Origin: a virus
Strand: one strand, 5' to 3'
Length of the DNA: 23,080 nucleotides
Virus record (IMG/VR): IMGVR_UViG_3300009086_000109
Location: 1 to 23,080 of that record
Under the pieces are notes generated by a model. That model was not told the origin of the DNA. It was given only the letters and a program-made list of their open reading frames with translations, and did not search any database. Position 1 is the stretch's first letter. Every line of letters starts with the position of its first letter. A program made the translations under genes and the position numbers. Of the stretch, positions 1,495 to 18,343 are shown one piece after another.

Positions 1495-3474
1495 ATGTAC
1501 GATGAAGAAAAATTCAGTGACCAGAAGGTAGAAGCATGGGTCATGGACAAGGTAGACCAATGGCGTGACCATTACAGCGCCAACTACGAACAAAAGTTCG
1601 ATGAGTACTACCGTCTGTGGCGTGGTCAGTGGGCGGCTGAGGACAGAACACGTGAATCAGAGCGTTCACGCCTTATTTCTCCTGCTTTGCAGCAAGCTGT
1701 TGAGAGTTCGGTAGCAGAAGTCGAGGAAGCCACCTTTGGTCGTGGTAAATGGTTCGACATTCGCGATGACCGCAGCGATCAAGACCCACGTGATGTCGCT
1801 TATTTGCGCGAACAACTGTCTGAGGACTTCCAATTTACCAAAACACGTAAGGCTGTTGCTGAGTGTATCCTGAACGCTGCGGTGTTCGGTACAGGTGTTG
1901 GTGAAATTGTCCTCGAAGAAGTAAAAGAGATGAAACCAGCGACCCAGCCTATCATGGATGGAGCGTTGAAAGCAGTGGGTGTTAACATCACTGACCGGAT
2001 CGTTGTTAAACTGCGTCCAATTCTCCCTCAAAACTTCCTGATTGACCCTGTTGCTACATCTATCGATGAAGCTCTTGGTGTTGCAATCGATGAGTTTGTT
2101 CCTAAACACCAAGTAGAGATGGGGATTCAAAATGGTATCTATCGCGATGTTGATATTGAGTGTTCCGATACTGATTCAGACATTGAAGCAGACAAAGACC
2201 TTACGTCATTTGATGATGATAAAGTCCGACTGACCAAGTATTACGGTTTAGTTCCTAAACATCTATACAACGACGCCGTTGTAGAAACAGAAGAAGATGA
2301 GCTGTCAAAAGAAGTCAAACCAGAAAGCGAAGGCGAAGAAACCGACGAAGAAGGGTACATCGAAGTAATCATGGTTATCGCTAACGGCGAGACTTTGTTG
2401 AAAATCGAAGAGAACCCCTACATGATGCAGGATCGCCCTGTTGTGGCTTTCCCTTGGGATGTAGTTCCATCACGTTTCTGGGGTCGTGGTATCTGCGAGA
2501 AGGGCTACAACAGCCAGAAAGCGCTCGATGCTGAGCTTCGCGCACGTATTGATGCCCTAGCCCTTACCGTCCACCCAATGATGGCTATGGACGCTTCTCG
2601 TATGCCTCGTGGGGCTAAGTTGGAAATACGTCCAGGCAAGACAATTCTAACTAACGGTAACCCAGCAGAGATTTTACAGCCGTTCAAGTTTGGCAGCTTA
2701 GATCAAGTTACCTTTGCTCAGGCTGGTGAGTTGCAGAAGATGGTTCAGATGGCGACAGGCGCTATTGACGCTGCTGGTATCCCCGGCTCTATCAATGGTG
2801 AGGCTGCTGCTGGTGCTGTGTCAATGTCAATGGGAGCGATTATCAAGCGCCACAAGCGTACTTTGATTAACTTCCAAGAGAGCTTCCTGATCCCAATGAT
2901 TGAGAAGTGTGCATGGCGTTATATGCAGTTTGATCCAGATCATTACCCTGTCTCAGACTACAAGTTTGTACCATCATCATCTCTGGGTGTTATCGCTCGT
3001 GAATACGAGGTGACGCAGTTGGTTCAACTGTTGCAGACACTTGGTCAAGATAGTCCGATGTACCCGATGTTGGTATCAGCGGTTATTGACAACATGGGTT
3101 TGTCCAACCGCGAAGAACTCATGGCTCAAATGCAACAAGCATCACAACCTAACCCAGAGCAGCAACAAATGCAACAAGCTCAGATGCAACAGCAGATGGC
3201 TCTGGCTCAGGCACAGCTTCAACTTGTTCAATCACAGGCAGCAGAAGCGCAGGCACGGGCACAGAAGTACGCTGTTGAGGCTCAGTTGGAACCACAAGTT
3301 GTGCAGGCTAAGATGGCAGCAGCCTTGTCCACAAACCTGCAAGCTGGTAGTGCTGATGAAGCTGAATTTGCAAAACGTGCCAAGATTACTGAACTGATGC
3401 TGAAAGAGAAAGACATCACCAGTAACGAGCGGATCGCGATGATGCAAATGCAAAAGAAGCAACAAAAGACTTGA
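1495..3474 (+). CDS. Portal (head-tail connector) protein
   Basis: Portal subunit of 659 residues, expected to form the dodecameric ring at one capsid vertex that acts as DNA channel, assembly nucleus and tail docking site. Evidence is its place between terminase and scaffold, its size, an N-terminal region rich in charged and aromatic residues (DQWRDHYSANYEQKFDEYYR), and the long C-terminal Gln/Ala-rich helical tail (about residues 544-590, with MQQAQMQQQMALAQAQ) common in podoviral portals. A very acidic insertion occurs at about residues 263-286. The stretch IKRHKRTLINFQESFLIPMI is also of portal type. AAGGAA lies 7 bases before the ATG. The stop codon TGA overlaps the -35 box of promoter P1. 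Family assignment is from recall and context; no catalytic motif exists to check. Confidence 0.85.
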   Translation: MYDEEKFSDQKVEAWVMDKVDQWRDHYSANYEQKFDEYYRLWRGQWAAEDRTRESERSRLISPALQQAVESSVAEVEEATFGRGKWFDIRDDRSDQDPRDVAYLREQLSEDFQFTKTRKAVAECILNAAVFGTGVGEIVLEEVKEMKPATQPIMDGALKAVGVNITDRIVVKLRPILPQNFLIDPVATSIDEALGVAIDEFVPKHQVEMGIQNGIYRDVDIECSDTDSDIEADKDLTSFDDDKVRLTKYYGLVPKHLYNDAVVETEEDELSKEVKPESEGEETDEEGYIEVIMVIANGETLLKIEENPYMMQDRPVVAFPWDVVPSRFWGRGICEKGYNSQKALDAELRARIDALALTVHPMMAMDASRMPRGAKLEIRPGKTILTNGNPAEILQPFKFGSLDQVTFAQAGELQKMVQMATGAIDAAGIPGSINGEAAAGAVSMSMGAIIKRHKRTLINFQESFLIPMIEKCAWRYMQFDPDHYPVSDYKFVPSSSLGVIAREYEVTQLVQLLQTLGQDSPMYPMLVSAVIDNMGLSNREELMAQMQQASQPNPEQQQMQQAQMQQQMALAQAQLQLVQSQAAEAQARAQKYAVEAQLEPQVVQAKMAAALSTNLQAGSADEAEFAKRAKITELMLKEKDITSNERIAMMQMQKKQQKT

Positions 3475-3499
3475 CAAAAACGTAAATTTGTGGTATAAT
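3471..3499 (+). promoter_or_regulatory. Promoter P1, consensus sigma70 with extended -10
   Basis: The -35 box TTGACA (3471-3476) and -10 box TATAAT (3494-3499) are both perfect consensus, with a 17-base spacer and a TGG just before the -10 box (extended -10). The predicted start is near 3506, giving a leader of about 29 bases to the ATG at 3535. It lies over the portal stop codon and faces the scaffold/capsid genes. The surrounding 38 bases match promoter P2 at 34 positions. A host RNA polymerase with its housekeeping sigma factor should use it. Confidence 0.88.
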
Positions 3500-3534
3500 T
3501 ACAACATCTCTCCACATTATGAAAGGATAAAGAG

Positions 3535-3780
3535 ATGGATAAAGAGCTACAAAGATACTATGAAAATTTACTAGATTTGTTTACCCGTGATGGGTGGAAG
3601 CAATTCATTGAAGACATCTCAGATAACAAAGAGGTACTTGATGATATTACAACCATCCCTGATGAGAAACAATTCTGGTTCCGCAGAGGACAGATAGAAG
3701 CGATTAGCCGTATTCTTTCCTACGAGTCTACCATAAAAAATAGTTATGAAGACTTTGAAAGGGATTTACAGGATGCCTAA
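3535..3780 (+). CDS. Small acidic protein, first gene after P1
   Basis: An 81-residue protein of unknown function. It is predicted to be nearly all helical and acidic, starting MDKELQRYYENLLDLFTRDG and with a central FWFRRGQIEAISRIL segment. AAAGGA precedes the ATG by about 7 bases. It is the first gene downstream of the strong P1 promoter and its 3' end overlaps the next start by 8 bases, so it should be expressed with scaffold and capsid. Small helical proteins in this position occur in other podoviruses, but I cannot assign a function. A head-assembly or portal-associated role is only inference from the neighbours. Confidence 0.78.
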   Translation: MDKELQRYYENLLDLFTRDGWKQFIEDISDNKEVLDDITTIPDEKQFWFRRGQIEAISRILSYESTIKNSYEDFERDLQDA

Positions 3781-4012
3781 ACGTATCTACGAGTTTATCT
3801 GCGGAGATGACCATATCACAGAGGCTTACATTGATTCGGAACTCCGAACAACCAATTGTAAAGTGTGTGGTCAACCTGCAATCCGAATCGTTAGCAAGCC
3901 GATGGTCAAGTTAGAGGGCGTGACCGGAGATTTTCCCGGGGCAGCAATGCAATGGGAGCGCAAGCGAAACGAGAAGATAGCGCAGGAAAAGAAGAGTGCC
4001 GCTCAGGATTAA
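3773..4012 (+). CDS. FmdB-like zinc-ribbon small protein
   Basis: The start chosen is ATG 3773 (MPKRIYEF), giving 79 residues. The further upstream ATG at 3746 would run deep into the previous gene and lacks the typical MP-x-YEF opening. Putative metal ligands are C10 and H14 (CGDDH) and C29/C32 (CKVCG), the layout of a small zinc ribbon in the style of FmdB regulatory proteins, with the first pair being Cys-x3-His rather than Cys-x2-Cys. The C-terminal half is basic and helical (WERKRNEKIAQEKK). It overlaps the previous stop by 8 bases. Such ribbons can bind nucleic acid or protein; which applies here is unknown. Confidence 0.72.
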   Translation: MPKRIYEFICGDDHITEAYIDSELRTTNCKVCGQPAIRIVSKPMVKLEGVTGDFPGAAMQWERKRNEKIAQEKKSAAQD

Positions 4013-4068: not shown

Positions 4069-4854
4069 ATGGCAACATTTATTGACGAAGGCGACGAAGA
4101 GTTGCAACCCGAAGAGTTTTCCTCCATCGAAGAGGTAGAACAGGAAGCTCCTACACAGGAGTCAAACCCAGAAGACGACGACATTCCTGATAAGTACAAG
4201 GGCAAATCTGTTAAAGATATTGTTCGTATGCATCAAGAAGCCGAACGCGCAATCGGCAAACAGGGGAGTGAAGTCGGCGAACTTCGACGTATTGTAGATG
4301 ACTTTGTTAAAGCCCAAACCGTCTCAAAACAAGAACAAGCCCCAGATGTCGAGGACGAGGTAGATTTCTTTACCGATCCCGACAAAGCAATCGCACGAGC
4401 CATCGAGAAGCATCCGAAAGTACGCCAAGCTGAAGAGCTAACGGTGAACATGAAGAGAGCTGAGGCTTTGGCTAATCTGAAATCAAACCATCCAGACTAC
4501 GGTGACGTTATTAACGATCCTTCGTTTGGGGAGTGGGTTGCTAAGAGTAAGGTTCGCCAAGAGTTGTTTAGTCGTGCAGACCGTAACTATGATTTTGATT
4601 CCGCAGACGAGCTTCTTACTACGTGGAAAGAACGGAAACAAGTAGTCGCTCAATCACAAGAGATCGAGAAAGTAGAACGCAAGCAAGCGATCAAGTCAGC
4701 AGCCACTGGTTCAACCAAGGGTTCTGGCGAGACAGCAAGTAAGAAAACCTATCGCAGAGCAGACATCATTAATCTCATGCGTACTAATCCTGACCGTTAC
4801 GAAGAGCTTGCCCCTGAAATCATGCAAGCCTACGCTGAAGGTCGGGTCAAATAA
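4069..4854 (+). CDS. Capsid scaffolding (assembly) protein
   Basis: A 261-residue protein placed immediately before the major capsid gene. It is expected to form the internal scaffold that directs procapsid shape and leaves or is degraded before DNA packaging. The N-terminal 60 residues are very acidic (DEGDEELQPEEFSSIEEVEQ), the middle is charged and coiled-coil-like (about residues 60-215), and the C terminus is a compact basic helical segment (YRRADIINLMRTNPDRYEEL) like the capsid-binding tails of podoviral scaffolds. CGGAG precedes the ATG by 6 bases. There are no Cys residues, usual for scaffolds. The call rests on composition and on the portal-scaffold-capsid gene order. Confidence 0.85.
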   Translation: MATFIDEGDEELQPEEFSSIEEVEQEAPTQESNPEDDDIPDKYKGKSVKDIVRMHQEAERAIGKQGSEVGELRRIVDDFVKAQTVSKQEQAPDVEDEVDFFTDPDKAIARAIEKHPKVRQAEELTVNMKRAEALANLKSNHPDYGDVINDPSFGEWVAKSKVRQELFSRADRNYDFDSADELLTTWKERKQVVAQSQEIEKVERKQAIKSAATGSTKGSGETASKKTYRRADIINLMRTNPDRYEELAPEIMQAYAEGRVK

Positions 4855-4875: not shown

Positions 4876-5781
4876 ATGGCACTCGGTACTAATCACGTAA
4901 CCAACGCAACCGCTGGTACGTTTATCCCTGAATTGTGGTCTGACGAAATCATCGCAGCCTACAAGCAAAACCTCGTTATGGCAAACCTCGTCTCTAAGAT
5001 GTCCTTCAAGGGCAAAAAGGGCGACACCTTGCACATCCCTAAGCCCACTCGTGGCGCTGCCTCTTTGAAAGCTGCTTCTAACCAAGTTACGTTGCAAGCT
5101 GCCACTGAGTCAGAAGTCCAAGTGTTGGTGAACAAGCACTACGAATATAGCCGCTTGATCGAAGACATCACCGAAGCTCAGGCTTTGGCATCACTGCGTA
5201 AATTCTACACAGGCGACGCTGGCTACGCTTTGGCTAAGCAAGTTGACACCGATTTGGTGTTCTTGGGTCGTGGTGTTAACGGCGGTGACGGTACTGCTGC
5301 TTACACGGGCGCTATTATCGGTTCTGGCAACACTGCCTACACTGGTTCTAACGCTGCTGCTATCAGCGACGCTGGTATCCGCGCTGCAATCCAGAAGTTG
5401 GATGACGCTGACGTTCCTATGGACGGTCGTGTGTTGGTTCTGCCTCCTGTTGCTCGTAACGTGATGATGGGCTTGGCTCGTTTCACTGAGCAGGCTTTCA
5501 CTGGTGAAGTTGGTGGTGGTAACACTATTCGCAACGGTGAAATCGGTAACGTCTACGGTGTTAAAGTCTTCGTGACTACCAACGCTGACGCTGCTACCAG
5601 CGGTGACCGCATCGGTTTGATGTTCACTAAGGACGCTTTCGTGTTGGCTGAGCAAATGGGCGTTCGCTCACAGACTCAGTACAAGCAAGAGTACTTGGGT
5701 ACATTGTTCACCTCTGACATGCTGTACGGCGTGAAAGAGTTGCGTGATGAAGCAGCCGTTGCAATCGCAATGCCTGCCTAA
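4876..5781 (+). CDS. Major capsid protein
   Basis: A 301-residue shell protein, presumably of the HK97 fold used by all tailed phages. Support comes from its position after the scaffold, its length, and typical features: an opening about FIPELWSDEIIAAYKQNLVM, a repeated-contact segment around VNKHYEYSRLIEDITEAQAL, and a C-terminal region ending LYGVKELRDEAAVAIAMPA. Codon use is strongly biased (Asn nearly always AAC, Phe TTC, many GGT and CGT/CGC), consistent with very high expression. AAAGG lies 8 bases upstream of the ATG. The gene is followed within 10 bases by a strong terminator hairpin. No programmed frameshift extension is seen. Confidence 0.93.
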   Translation: MALGTNHVTNATAGTFIPELWSDEIIAAYKQNLVMANLVSKMSFKGKKGDTLHIPKPTRGAASLKAASNQVTLQAATESEVQVLVNKHYEYSRLIEDITEAQALASLRKFYTGDAGYALAKQVDTDLVFLGRGVNGGDGTAAYTGAIIGSGNTAYTGSNAAAISDAGIRAAIQKLDDADVPMDGRVLVLPPVARNVMMGLARFTEQAFTGEVGGGNTIRNGEIGNVYGVKVFVTTNADAATSGDRIGLMFTKDAFVLAEQMGVRSQTQYKQEYLGTLFTSDMLYGVKELRDEAAVAIAMPA

Positions 5782-5789
5782 TTAGGCTA

Positions 5790-5820
5790 AGGGGGCTCTC
5801 TTCGGAGGGTTCCCTCTTTT
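5790..5820 (+). terminator. Intrinsic terminator after major capsid gene
   Basis: A ten-pair stem is formed by 5791-5800 and 5805-5814, closed by a UUCG tetraloop (5801-5804), with one more A-U pair at the base (5790/5815). Three of the pairs are G-U. A run TCTTTT follows directly. It lies 8 bases after the capsid stop codon and before the fibre gene. The U tract is short, so some read-through to the fibre is likely. Confidence 0.8.
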
Positions 5821-5872
5821 GTTAAAGGGCTTTAGTTAGAGTCCTTCACCAAGAGTTCAACAAGGAGAAAAC

Positions 5873-10571: not shown

Positions 10572-10573
10572 AC

Positions 10574-10602
10574 TTGACAAAAACATAATTTTGTGGTATA
10601 AT
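10574..10602 (+). promoter_or_regulatory. Promoter P2, near-copy of P1
   Basis: TTGACA (10574-10579) and TATAAT (10597-10602) are separated by 17 bases with TGG before the -10 box, exactly as in P1. The start is expected near 10609, giving a leader of about 14 bases. It faces the tail adaptor, nozzle, short fibre and ejection genes. The 38 bases 10572-10609 match 3469-3506 at 34 positions. Confidence 0.88.
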
Positions 10603-10622
10603 AGCAACAAAGGAAGAAATAA

Positions 10623-11282
10623 ATGACATACTTAGAACTTGTCAATGCAGTATTACGCAGACTTCGAGAGAGTGAGGTAGCCACCGTACAAGGATCAGGT
10701 AATTCTAACTCTTATGCTCGTTTGATTGGAGACTTTGTAAACGAAGCAAAAGCTCAGATTGAGAACGCTTGGGATTGGAGTAGCTTACGAACCACCTTAG
10801 CGGTAATCACAACTCCTAATGTGTTTAGTTATGAATTAAACGGGACGCAGAATAACTTTGAAGTGTTAGATGTATGGAATAATACAGATGACATTCAAAT
10901 GCAACCTAAATCGGCTAACTGGTTTAATACAGAGTTTCTAACAGCAACTCCTCAAACAGGTCAACCACTTTTCTATAACTTCAACGGCGTTACAGCAGAT
11001 GGTGACGCTCAGGTGGATGTATACCCTATCCCTAACGGCGCGTATGAGTTATTGTTTAACGTAAGTTTGCGGAACTCGGTACTCACTACTGATTCTGATG
11101 TTATTTATATTCCAAGCCGCCCTGTAATTCTATTAGCTACTGCGATGGCTATTGAGGAACGTGGCGAAGATGGAGGACAGCAGAGTATTAACTCGTACCA
11201 GTTAGCGCAATCAGCTATTTCAGACGAGATTGCTTATGATGCAGCCCGTCACCCAGAGGACACAATTTGGTATAGCGTATGA
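10623..11282 (+). CDS. Tail tubular protein A-like adaptor
   Basis: A 219-residue head-tail adaptor of the T7 gp11 type, which forms a ring under the portal and starts the short tail. It shows the typical opening MTYLELVNAVLRRLRE, followed by FVNEAKAQIENAWDWSSLRT, a central beta region with QPLFYNFN and VDVYPIPNGAYELLFNVSLR, and a C-terminal helical part (SRPVILLATAMAIEERGEDG) ending in HPEDTIWYSV. Length is close to T7 gp11 (about 200). AAAGGAAG precedes the ATG. It is the first gene after P2 and overlaps the next gene in ATGA, as expected for adaptor and nozzle. Confidence 0.88.
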   Translation: MTYLELVNAVLRRLRESEVATVQGSGNSNSYARLIGDFVNEAKAQIENAWDWSSLRTTLAVITTPNVFSYELNGTQNNFEVLDVWNNTDDIQMQPKSANWFNTEFLTATPQTGQPLFYNFNGVTADGDAQVDVYPIPNGAYELLFNVSLRNSVLTTDSDVIYIPSRPVILLATAMAIEERGEDGGQQSINSYQLAQSAISDEIAYDAARHPEDTIWYSV

Positions 11283-15789: not shown

Positions 15790-18105
15790 ATGGCATTTGA
15801 TATTGAAGGAGCTAAAAAGGCTGGTGCAAGTGATGAACAAATCGCTGAATACCTAGCCAAGAAACACGGCTTTAACCTAGAAGGGGCTACCAAAGCTGGC
15901 GCTAAAGCATCAGATGTCATTACACACCTGATGAAGAAAGAAGGCGGTTCTGTTGAAAAACAAGCTCCTGATGAAAGTGCTGCTGAAACGGCTCGGTTAG
16001 CTGGTAAGGAAGCACCGAAAGCAGAAGCCCCCGGCATTGTCGAGCAGATGTTTGGTTTAGGTAGCCCAATCGCTCGTGTGGTCAAAGGTGCTGTGGTTGA
16101 TCCTCTGTTGGGTATTAACCAACTTGTGGCGAACACTGGTTTGTTTGGAGATACCGTTAAGCAAGGCGCTAATCAATTGGTTAGGGGTTATGAGGGCGCT
16201 ACTCAGGAAGCTCGTGCCCGTGTAGGTAGCGAAGGTTTTGACCCTTATCAGTTGGGTGGCGCTATCGTCAGTCCTGTTAACAAACTAGGCGTTGTCGGTC
16301 AAGGCGGTTCTTTAATTTCTAAGATAGGCTCAGGGGCTGGTGCTGGTGCTATTCAAGGTTTTATTGCACCTACACAGACAGAGGGTGATGACGGGACAGG
16401 AGATCGCTTAGTCAACGCAGCCTTGGGTGCTGCTTTTGGTGCTGGTATTCCTGCTACGGCTGAGGCTGCTCAACAGGTATGGGAGATCATTCGACGCCTG
16501 CCTATCAATCCTGCTGGTAAACTACGTGCCTTGCAGAAACACTTAGGTGATAAGATTCCTGTTGAAGCTCGTGAGGAAATTAGCTCTGAGTTACGAGCAG
16601 CCAAACCATCCACAGAAGGTTATCAGCAATCAGCAGCGGAAGCTCTGGCAGACCAGCCAAAAGCTATTGAGTTGATGCGGGAACAGGAACGTGCGTTAGC
16701 TGCTACTCCTAGTGTGGCTCGGGTGCGTGACTTGGAAAACCAGCAGGCGATTCAGACGCAGATGGAAGGTGCGTTTGGTAAGGCAGAGGATATCCCTGTT
16801 GCTGAACAAATGCGTGATGTACGAACAGGCGCTATGCGTGAACAAGCTCTGGCAGATGCAGATAAGTTCCGCACACAGGTTGTCCCCGCAGAACAAGCTG
16901 CTGTACGTGCTGATGCAGCCGCCGAAGGTCAGTTAGCTAAACAAGCCTCTGAGCTAGAAGGTGCTGCTGCTAAGGATGTTGAATTCCAAGCAGGAAAGCC
17001 CGGCTGGTTAACAGCAGGGACACAGGCGTTTGAGAAGAGAGCTGCTGCACAACAAGCAGGCGACAAAGCTGGTTTGTTGAAGGCTGAGGCTGATGTTAAA
17101 AGGATGCAGGCTCAGGCTATTAAGGATGAGGGTTTTTACCCATTGGAGATTGATAGTATCGTTAAGAACATCGAGAAAGAATTGGCTGATCCAATGACTA
17201 AGGTGGACGATACGCTCATCTCAGTTCTAAACAGTACGCAGCGTAAATTGATGGATGCTGTTGACCCTGAAACAGGCATCATTAACAGTGACGTTCTGTA
17301 CAAGGTACGCAAGCTAATTAACCAAGATATCCAAAAAGCGCTGGCTGGTCAGAAGGTAACAGACGCTCCCGCAGTCGAAAAGAAGGTGCGTGATATTCTG
17401 GACAAGTCGATTGAGAAAGCATCGGGTGGGAACTTGTGGGGTAAATACCTCTCTGAGTATTCTGAACGTAGCACTCAAATCGACCAGATGAAGCTAGGAC
17501 GCGATTTGTTGGGTAAGCTAGGGGTAGATAGTGCAAGTGGTGCTCAAAAGGCTGGTACGTTCGTTCAGGCGGTTAATAACGTTACCGACACTATCAAAGA
17601 TATCACTGGACGTAGTTACGACAAGTTAGAAGACTTCGCCACTCCCCGTCAGGTTAACATCCTAAAGAGTGTAGCCTCTGATGTTAGCCGTAAGGAACGA
17701 GCAGCGTTATCAGCTTCTTATGGTAAGGCAAGTGAAGGTGTACAACCAGAATCTAGGAATTTACCCGCGCTCTTAGATAAAGGTCTGACATTAACCAAAA
17801 CAATCATTGGTTGGATGCAGCATGGTTCCCAAAAGGAATTTGACGCCAAGATTGCTGACCTGATGTTGAATCCCCAGAAGTTGGCAACGTTCATTGATAA
17901 CCTACCAAAGGATCGGATGAACATTGTTGTCGAGTTGATGGTACAACGTATGAGTCCTGATATGCGAGCTTCGTTCTTATCTATCGTACCGAAAGGTGAG
18001 AAAGTTCTTGATGAACTCGGAACTGCACAAACTGCTATCAGAAATGTTAGCGGAGCCGCTGTCCGAGGTGGTGTGATACGCGATGTAGGCGTCCAACGTC
18101 AATAA
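15790..18105 (+). CDS. Internal virion (ejection) protein, third and largest
   Basis: A 771-residue protein, last of the + strand arm. The N terminus carries two tandem 25-residue units (residues 3-27 and 28-52). Next is a Gly/Ala-rich, membrane-prone region (about 90-240, with KIGSGAGAGAIQGFIAPTQT and AALGAAFGAGIPATAEAA). Residues about 250-480 are long helices rich in Ala, Gln and Glu (EQAAVRADAAAEGQLAKQAS). The C-terminal 250 residues are mixed and charged. It would fill the role of T7 gp16, but it is much shorter (T7 gp16 is about 1300) and no transglycosylase motif is seen. AAAGGA precedes the ATG. The stop is directly followed by a terminator. Confidence 0.7.
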   Translation: MAFDIEGAKKAGASDEQIAEYLAKKHGFNLEGATKAGAKASDVITHLMKKEGGSVEKQAPDESAAETARLAGKEAPKAEAPGIVEQMFGLGSPIARVVKGAVVDPLLGINQLVANTGLFGDTVKQGANQLVRGYEGATQEARARVGSEGFDPYQLGGAIVSPVNKLGVVGQGGSLISKIGSGAGAGAIQGFIAPTQTEGDDGTGDRLVNAALGAAFGAGIPATAEAAQQVWEIIRRLPINPAGKLRALQKHLGDKIPVEAREEISSELRAAKPSTEGYQQSAAEALADQPKAIELMREQERALAATPSVARVRDLENQQAIQTQMEGAFGKAEDIPVAEQMRDVRTGAMREQALADADKFRTQVVPAEQAAVRADAAAEGQLAKQASELEGAAAKDVEFQAGKPGWLTAGTQAFEKRAAAQQAGDKAGLLKAEADVKRMQAQAIKDEGFYPLEIDSIVKNIEKELADPMTKVDDTLISVLNSTQRKLMDAVDPETGIINSDVLYKVRKLINQDIQKALAGQKVTDAPAVEKKVRDILDKSIEKASGGNLWGKYLSEYSERSTQIDQMKLGRDLLGKLGVDSASGAQKAGTFVQAVNNVTDTIKDITGRSYDKLEDFATPRQVNILKSVASDVSRKERAALSASYGKASEGVQPESRNLPALLDKGLTLTKTIIGWMQHGSQKEFDAKIADLMLNPQKLATFIDNLPKDRMNIVVELMVQRMSPDMRASFLSIVPKGEKVLDELGTAQTAIRNVSGAAVRGGVIRDVGVQRQ
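15796..15945 (+). repeat. Two tandem 25-residue units at ejection protein N terminus
   Basis: Residues 3-27 (FDIEGAKKAGASDEQIAEYL...) and 28-52 (FNLEGATKAGAKASDVITHL...) align without gaps, sharing F-x-(I/L)-E-G-A-x-K-A-G-A and a helical second half with KK near the end. The DNA copies are clearly diverged. Confidence 0.8.
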
Positions 18106-18107
18106 AC

Positions 18108-18147
18108 AAAAAAGCCCCTAGGCAGAAATGCTTCGGGGCTTTTTTTT
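18108..18147. terminator. Bidirectional terminator between convergent arms
   Basis: AAAAAAGCCCC (18108-18118) pairs with GGGGCTTTTTT (18135-18145). The apex adds a four-pair stem (18120-18123 with 18130-18133) around a six-base loop. Eight T's (18140-18147) end the + strand copy, and the A run gives six U's on the - strand. It serves the ejection-gene transcript on + and the PhoH/reductase transcript on -, whose last stop codon touches it. Confidence 0.93.
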
Positions 18148-18343
18148 AGTCTTGGATTTCTAAGACTTCATCATCTAGTTCAGAGAACTCACCAATGTAG
18201 ATGGAGAAGAATGGGATTTTGATTAACAACCCCTCATAGGCGGCAATAAACCGTCCCTCTTCATCACCGACTACGTGGCAGATGTTATCGTTATGCTCGA
18301 TGTCGAAACCGATACCAAGTCGCATGTTAATGTGTAAGCTCAT
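18146..18343 (-). CDS. Small acidic protein, last gene of the - strand operon
   Basis: A 65-residue unknown. The start chosen is the ATG at 18343 (MSLHINMRLGIGFDIEHNDN) because AGGA lies 8 bases upstream. Extending to an upstream start at 18427 would run through 84 more bases of phoH without a ribosome site. It overlaps the end of phoH by 17 bases in another frame. The protein is acidic and beta-leaning (FIAAYEGLLIKIPFFSIYIG, then EFSELDDEVLEIQD). No motif is recognised. It ends at the bidirectional terminator, whose U-run base pairs with its last codons. Confidence 0.68.
   Translation of the reverse strand: MSLHINMRLGIGFDIEHNDNICHVVGDEEGRFIAAYEGLLIKIPFFSIYIGEFSELDDEVLEIQD

Follow-up and report, generated by a model that had tools for sequence, protein, structure and literature searches.

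Why do two almost identical promoters precede the capsid and tail blocks of an uncultivated virus, what reads them, and what kind of RNA is expected to start at the first? The window analyzed here is a whole IMG/VR virus record of 23,080 bases that starts inside a terminase gene. One strand carries terminase, portal, probable scaffold, capsid, and tail genes, and the opposite strand carries genes for PhoH, ribonucleotide reductase, thioredoxin, and a phosphoesterase. The first site, P1, lies between the portal gene and the capsid block; the second, P2, lies before a tail protein gene. The features referred to below are as follows.

1495 to 3474, plus strand: portal protein, with its stop codon inside the −35 box of P1
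3471 to 3499, plus strand: promoter P1 (−35 TTGACA 3471–3476, spacer 3477–3493, −10 TATAAT 3494–3499)
3505 to 3537, plus strand: predicted RNA hairpin over the start of ORF 3535 (covariation, bulge-length test)
3535 to 3780, plus strand: ORF 3535, 81 residues (MDKEL...), first gene of the expected P1 transcript
3746 to 4012, plus strand: 88-residue ORF with weak, sub-threshold zinc-ribbon similarity
4069 to 4854, plus strand: probable head scaffolding protein (top match a family of unknown function, second match a scaffolding family)
4876 to 5781, plus strand: major capsid protein
5790 to 5815, plus strand: intrinsic-terminator-like site 3′ of the capsid gene (fold of 5786–5830, −17.6 kcal/mol)
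10574 to 10602, plus strand: promoter P2 (−35 TTGACA 10574–10579, spacer 10580–10596, −10 TATAAT 10597–10602)
10623 to 11282, plus strand: tail protein, first gene of the expected P2 transcript
18108 to 18145, plus strand: terminator-like hairpin flanked on each side by A and T tracts, where the virion and replication gene blocks converge

The DNA of the window has no match among cultured phages. Its portal protein matches those of 11 cultured-phage records at 20 to 27% identity, and its capsid protein is about 35% identical to those of freshwater cyanopodoviruses such as Pf-WMP3, which are among its closest cultured capsid relatives. Nine capsid matches in genome contigs were considered as a guide to the host; eight are MAG contigs (about 4–40 kb) with unrelated taxon labels and the ninth comes from an isolate but matches only weakly and in part, and hence no host is claimed. 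The product of ORF 3535 is acidic (net charge −9) and has relatives in 139 loci, with no match among the cultured phages searched. The 88-residue product that follows has a net positive charge; its similarity to a zinc ribbon (E = 0.0033, 17.9 bits) falls under the Pfam cut-off of 34.4.

According to a preliminary description of this DNA, positions 3469–3506 and 10572–10609 form a matching pair with consensus boxes and a 17-base spacer, and this was borne out. The two stretches agree in 34 of 38 bases, both match TTGACA-N17-TATAAT at 12 of 12 box positions, inside the 16 to 18 spacing of sigma70-type extended −10 promoters, and both 17-base spacers end in TGTGG immediately before the −10 box (3489–3493 in P1), in agreement with TRTGN. 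Transcription starts assigned by rule, 7 bases beyond the −10 box, are predicted at A3506 and A10609. A scan for perfect sites with spacers of 15 to 19 bases returned P1 and P2 only (shuffle mean 0.01), and the 29-base core occurs twice in the window at up to 3 mismatches and never in 100 shuffles, so that the earlier statement that the window holds no third copy stands. The likeness is confined to the element, since the flanks match at only 5 of 20 positions upstream and 10 of 30 downstream. The spacer is noncoding at both sites, as had been stated, but the element of P1 is not entirely free of a coding role, the portal stop codon TGA (3472–3474) being part of its −35 box.

Capsid, portal, and tail proteins served as queries for relatives, and the best 80 loci were taken for each. 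Among them the class follows the pattern TTGACA-N12-TRTGN-TATAAT. At the P1 junction, which follows the portal gene, a 12/12 site occurs in 55 of 74 loci, always with a 17-base spacer, and is missing from 19; 6 of the best 80 portal loci have no such junction, and sites more than 220 bases past the portal stop were left uncounted. Before the tail gene, a 12/12 site is present in 33 and lacking in 42 of 75 loci (best 80, 5 skipped). In relatives, the terminase block has a third promoter on its upstream side, in a stretch that lies to the left of this window. The exact pattern gave one to four matches in 17 of 23 long records and none in the other 6; reversed-pattern controls gave none. The virion-gene strand of the relatives' loci holds 127 distinct 12/12 sites, 118 of them 17-spaced with TRTG, against 8 on the other strand, one with TRTG. 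Fourteen duplicate or genome-contig loci were dropped from this strand count and related strains were counted separately; because the loci are centered on virion genes, the comparison is biased toward the virion-gene strand. In 117 distinct cores, themselves selected for TRTG, TTGAC is fixed, and across the class the boxes, TRTG, and the 17-base length are near-fixed, while the inner 12 spacer bases vary and are A/T-rich. Judged by these alignments, the candidate promoters P1 and P2 belong to an ordinary type that this phage group uses consistently.

The optimal spacer of sigma70/sigmaA promoters is given as 17 bp, and TRTG at −17 to −14 as a Gram-positive consensus with effects also in E. coli, in the excerpted text of PMC2613000. 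With the TRTGN extended −10 promoters of that text the present sites share TTGACA, TATAAT, the 17-bp spacer, and TRTG at −17 to −14; they differ in being predicted promoters that form a near-perfect class on virion genes, in phages without a detected RNA polymerase. The single-subunit RNA polymerase that phages with T7-type promoters encode was not found, as PF00940 had no match in 16 records (the window and 15 relatives, which may be incomplete); the built-in controls of this search gave no signal, and phage HTVC011P, used as positive control, did. Sigma region 4 (PF04545) was likewise absent from the 16 records, with its controls detected. Because neither was found, host sigma70 polymerase is the likely reader, a sigma70 preference being assumed for the host. 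Wumptrevirus WMP3 (Saffermanviridae) and other freshwater cyanopodoviruses also have no PF00940 match, but in them the promoter pattern is absent even at 2 mismatches.

Two other accounts of the pair have to be weighed, both of them raised in the preliminary description. The suggestion that a phage-encoded transcription factor or polymerase recognizes the spacer and start region of the element draws on boxes that show unusually little variation and lie mostly on one strand. It did not find support: the inner spacer is variable, P1 and P2 have different start regions, PF00940 and PF04545 are missing from 16 of 16 records, and the part that is conserved (−35, TRTGN extended −10, −10, spacing of 17) coincides with what host sigma70 polymerase reads. 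We regard this account as very improbable; a small accessory factor may still play a part. The other suggestion was that the pair reflects recent duplication or else selection. Selection on the promoter element is supported by a class that is nearly invariant across relatives, whereas recent duplication is not, because divergent relatives keep each site at its particular junction, followed by a downstream sequence specific to that site (in the window's clade, ACATCTCT after P1 and CAACAAAGGA after P2), and the pair must therefore be old. In its strongest form, the duplication account makes P1 and P2 recent copies of one 38-base element that travels as a small mobile promoter cassette. P2 is indeed missing as one clean block, holding just the promoter and a handful of flanking bases (alignment A2), in four close relatives (L171, L176, L189, and L194), and on a tree of 58 of the best 80 tail-gene loci its gain and loss require at least seven state changes when 10/12 sites are scored as present. 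The preliminary description had named relatives lacking the element at these junctions as evidence against its reading, and such relatives do exist for P2, which goes part of the way toward that outcome. P1 and P2 are also more alike over the 12 inner spacer bases within genomes than between them (6.77 against 5.24 identities; permutation p = 0.0007 for 13 genomes, 0.001 for 11 deduplicated genomes, and 0.025 for the 9 that remain without the window and its nearest relative), values that are not clean probabilities as the genomes are related. This likeness hints at copying or homogenization. Against a recent copy stand the junction-specific conservation, the fact that homology ends at the boundaries of the element, and the low complexity of the spacer, because of which a 10/12 match is not especially rare (position frequencies give a probability of about 0.01). 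Taken together, we consider recent duplication unlikely. The excerpted text of PMC4503421 describes PeSL cassettes of T4-type phages, in which a short promoter module is gained and lost between early genes. The P2 block resembles them as a short promoter-bearing unit that comes and goes between genes; unlike a PeSL unit of promoter plus stem-loop, the block in alignment A2 contains no stem-loop, and it stands before virion genes rather than early ones.

The more novel component of the locus is the RNA element adjoining P1, not the promoter pair. In the predicted hairpin, an outer stem pairs 3505–3511 with 3531–3537, AUG included, and encloses a core in which CC (3512–3513) is opposite GG (3525–3526) of the Shine-Dalgarno sequence, with AUAA (3527–3530) as a 4-base bulge. 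The P1 start region of the window's clade reads ACATCTCTCC...GAAAGGATAAAGAGATG; CATCTCT is complementary to AGAGATG, which holds the start codon of the 81-residue ORF. An RNA starting at the predicted A3506 would retain six of the seven bases of the 5′ arm.

The pattern CC-loop-GG-ANAA was found in 79 of 105 distinct leaders (from 139 loci), 71 of which have a flanking stem of at least 4, leaving 34 of the 105 without the motif at that stem length. The letters CC, GG, and ANAA (AACA also allowed) were preset in the search, and their invariance in the alignment therefore reflects selection of the rows. The arms are diverse yet complementary, examples being AGCAT/ATGCT, ACAGT/ACTGT, TAACT/AGTTA, GTTCT/AGAAC, ACGCT/AGCGT, and GAACT/AGTTC, and 36 of 44 distinct arm pairs form a stem of at least 4, compared with a mean of 5.8 and a maximum of 13 in 2000 permutations. 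In alignment A1 (60 distinct rows from the 79 leaders, after removal of duplicates and of the rows with truncated 3′ arms L135, L132, and L009), 90.0% of cells are paired versus 62.8% after shuffling, and covariation is 0.639 versus 0.146 for shuffled and 0.060 to 0.146 for slid controls. All seven outer pairs vary on both sides, a measure that does not discriminate, since 209 of 500 shuffles also reach seven. With CC...GG fixed, no 5′ gap, and the letters of the bulge left free, a bulge of 4 was found in 66 leaders with 20 arm pairs, and any other length in 0 to 2 leaders each. When CC/GG was freed as well, at a stem of at least 6 and a 4-base bulge, CC/GG formed the largest class (18 of 84 distinct cases). 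The 23 stem labels (one of them a truncation artefact) require at least 23 changes on a 70-row tree of poor resolution, one-sided changes included. Loop length ranges from 3 to 12.

Thermodynamic support was not obtained: at −4.7 kcal/mol, the predicted fold does not surpass shuffled sequences (z = 0.05 and 0.42). When bulged stems of every kind were admitted in an open search, other stems were chosen in several clades, and hence the evidence for the hairpin is the covariation test and not the fold. No Rfam family reached its gathering score in the window or in 14 loci, and the open-licence literature searched contained no paper on this element. R1, a model built from A1, has a single site in the window (E = 3.6e-7, next 4.6), a match that is not independent, as the window's hairpin was in A1. 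Within the 75 bases viewed, 17 of the 71 hairpin leaders show no site resembling a promoter, and 6 show only a 10/12 site. No hairpin like that of P1 was found at the P2 gene; a TGACA/TGTCA hairpin in the start of that gene was set aside as presumably coding-constrained.

The placement of the arms varies among relatives. In some, the 5′ arm lies between the Shine-Dalgarno sequence and the AUG, with the 3′ arm in codons 2 to 5. In the window, GGATAAAGAG occurs twice (3525–3534 and 3537–3546), which offers the 5′ arm a second possible partner that would leave the AUG in the loop, as is the case in other clades, and this repeat is possibly the route by which one arrangement turned into the other. 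A variant start-site stem with ATAA on the 5′ side occurs in the leaders L021, L024, L034, L039, L043, and L057 (CTATT...AATAG in the first three), possibly a mirror form of the hairpin. L019 and L081 have a second small hairpin, GTTGTA-GAAA-TACAAC, adjoining the start-site hairpin on its upstream side, and L046 and L065 have a similar one.

The hairpin also appears on other genes. At E ≤ 0.001, R1 found one or two sites in 12 of 16 records and none in 4. Several relatives have, in addition, a site that was not in A1 at the first gene after the terminase-side promoter, about 100 to 250 bases from that promoter. In the family of this first gene (63 distinct leaders, from a scan covering 76 of the best 80 loci), a stem of at least 5 was found at bulge 4 in 44 leaders and at other bulges in 0 to 2, compared with 0 of 50, 0 of 51, and 3 of 42 control leaders of three other genes. 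A stem of at least 4 is present in 57 leaders, 56 of which have the same GUCU/AGAC core, so the terminase-side hairpins taken alone share one stem core and show little covariation. The first gene has no family match and its protein none among the cultured phages searched; to call it "terminase small subunit" would be to guess by position. A scan across loci gave 70 distinct stem-5 hits, 50 at the ORF 3535 family and 20 elsewhere, some of the latter being due to chance, since three shuffled sets gave 4, 10, and 7 matches. Two relatives carry the same hairpin at an endonuclease VII-like gene (L078 2075–2102 and L054 599–626; family match for L078 only) that begins MDKEL, as ORF 3535 does; it looks as if the hairpin module had been kept while a different gene took the place.

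These occurrences share a CC/GG core, a 4-base bulge, an outer stem that is free in sequence but paired, and a position on at least two unrelated genes. They could tentatively be read as a translational operator through which a trans-acting regulator couples the gene at the head of the terminase-side transcript with that at the head of the capsid transcript. This reading is doubtful, and is made more so because the nearest long relative of the window, G001, has one R1 hairpin only, at P1, with no terminase-side copy; so far, the window's clade has only the capsid-side copy. If true, a shared operator would be a new phage RNA regulon element. CsrA recognizes the motif ANGGA in a hairpin loop. 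The P1 hairpin does contain GGA, its GG facing CC; CsrA (PF02599) was found in none of the 16 records, with controls detected in 3, and RegA in none of the 16 in a search without a positive control.

The reading that we favor, with a probability of about 0.78 for its parts jointly, is that P1 and P2 are host-type virion promoters read by host polymerase and that the P1 RNA starts in a hairpin over the Shine-Dalgarno sequence and AUG. We infer that the promoters are active and late, that transcription starts where predicted, that a host sigma factor is used, and that the hairpin affects translation; what the comparisons show directly is the promoter class with its positions and conservation, the absence of the searched polymerase and sigma families from 16 records, the covariation and bulge geometry of the hairpin, and its design at a second transcript in other clades. 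A podovirus-like group apparently without its own RNA polymerase would thus use up to three strong host-type promoters for its virion genes, with the upstream one, outside the window, serving the terminase block, P1 the capsid block, and P2 the tail block. The host housekeeping polymerase would see the −35 box, the TRTGN extended −10, and the −10 box at a spacing of 17, the remainder of the spacer being merely kept A/T-rich. Late in infection it would transcribe up to three blocks. The P1 RNA would begin at the base of the hairpin that covers the Shine-Dalgarno sequence and start codon of ORF 3535, and the output of this first gene is therefore probably also set at translation. A weak hairpin would keep partly closed the gene that opens the capsid block and, in other clades, the one that opens the terminase-side block as well. 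On its own it is at most a mild brake, because its energy of −4.7 kcal/mol is no better than that of shuffles; conservation of the design over the sequence suggests that the hairpin may be bound by something.

Would the arms at 3505–3537 serve equally well as DNA, an inverted-repeat operator for a repressor at P1? They lie directly downstream of P1, and repressors often act just downstream of promoters. The arm sequence, however, changes freely while complementarity stays, the loop ranges from 3 to 12 bases, the motif has no promoter-like site in view in 17 of the 105 leaders, and it overlaps the ribosome-binding site or AUG, which together make a DNA operator extremely unlikely. Somewhat less remote, yet still improbable, is a passive 5′-terminal stem that shields the P1 mRNA from decay. 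This would suit the 25 of 48 leaders with both promoter and hairpin in which the stem starts 6 bases past the −10 box, the expected 5′ end; it accounts poorly for the terminase-side transcripts of other relatives, where the hairpin lies further in, about 100 to 250 bases from the promoter, and for hairpins that persist without a visible promoter.

For the favored hairpin over the Shine-Dalgarno sequence and AUG, the nearest precedent in the excerpted text of PMC3014915 is the set of T4 genes e, soc, 49, and I-TevI, whose mRNAs form a helix over the Shine-Dalgarno sequence and/or AUG. Such a helix is present here too, by comparison and prediction only. In T4 gene e, the hairpin lies beside late promoters and late transcripts lose the 5′ part of the structure (PMC3014915). 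Predicted P1 transcripts, in contrast, keep the 5′ arm, so that an escape of the gene e type fits poorly. Two further differences from the T4 hairpins are that other clades repeat the bulged design on another transcript and that the AUG of some relatives lies in the loop.

What began as a two-site curiosity thus grows into a map of transcription for an uncultivated phage group. With consensus promoters of host type on the virion blocks, it becomes directly testable how late genes are delayed without a phage polymerase, and a hairpin that is invisible to energy-based folding and plain in covariation is a candidate part of late-gene control.

Some minor observations concern other sites in the window and its relatives. 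The hairpin at 18108–18145 is, by its predicted folds (18100–18152; −22.6 kcal/mol forward and −19.7 kcal/mol reverse), a two-way terminator-like element where the blocks of both strands meet; the terminator scan did not list it. In the nearest long relative (L091, 6322–8812), the terminase-side promoter is followed by a small unknown gene, a holin-like gene, and an endolysin gene; a 417-residue ORF in the terminase position comes after these lysis genes, which are thus early on that transcript. Perfect or near-perfect promoters also occur on the opposite strand of relatives (L137 6794−, L147 676−, L146 6082−, and L142 6303−), with 16-base spacers and without TRTG. An inverted repeat surrounds the −35 box in each, its sequence differing by record (CGGAGGGG...CTCCTCCG in L137, CCTAGGGG...CCCCTAGG in L142), and the arrangement looks like a putative operator.
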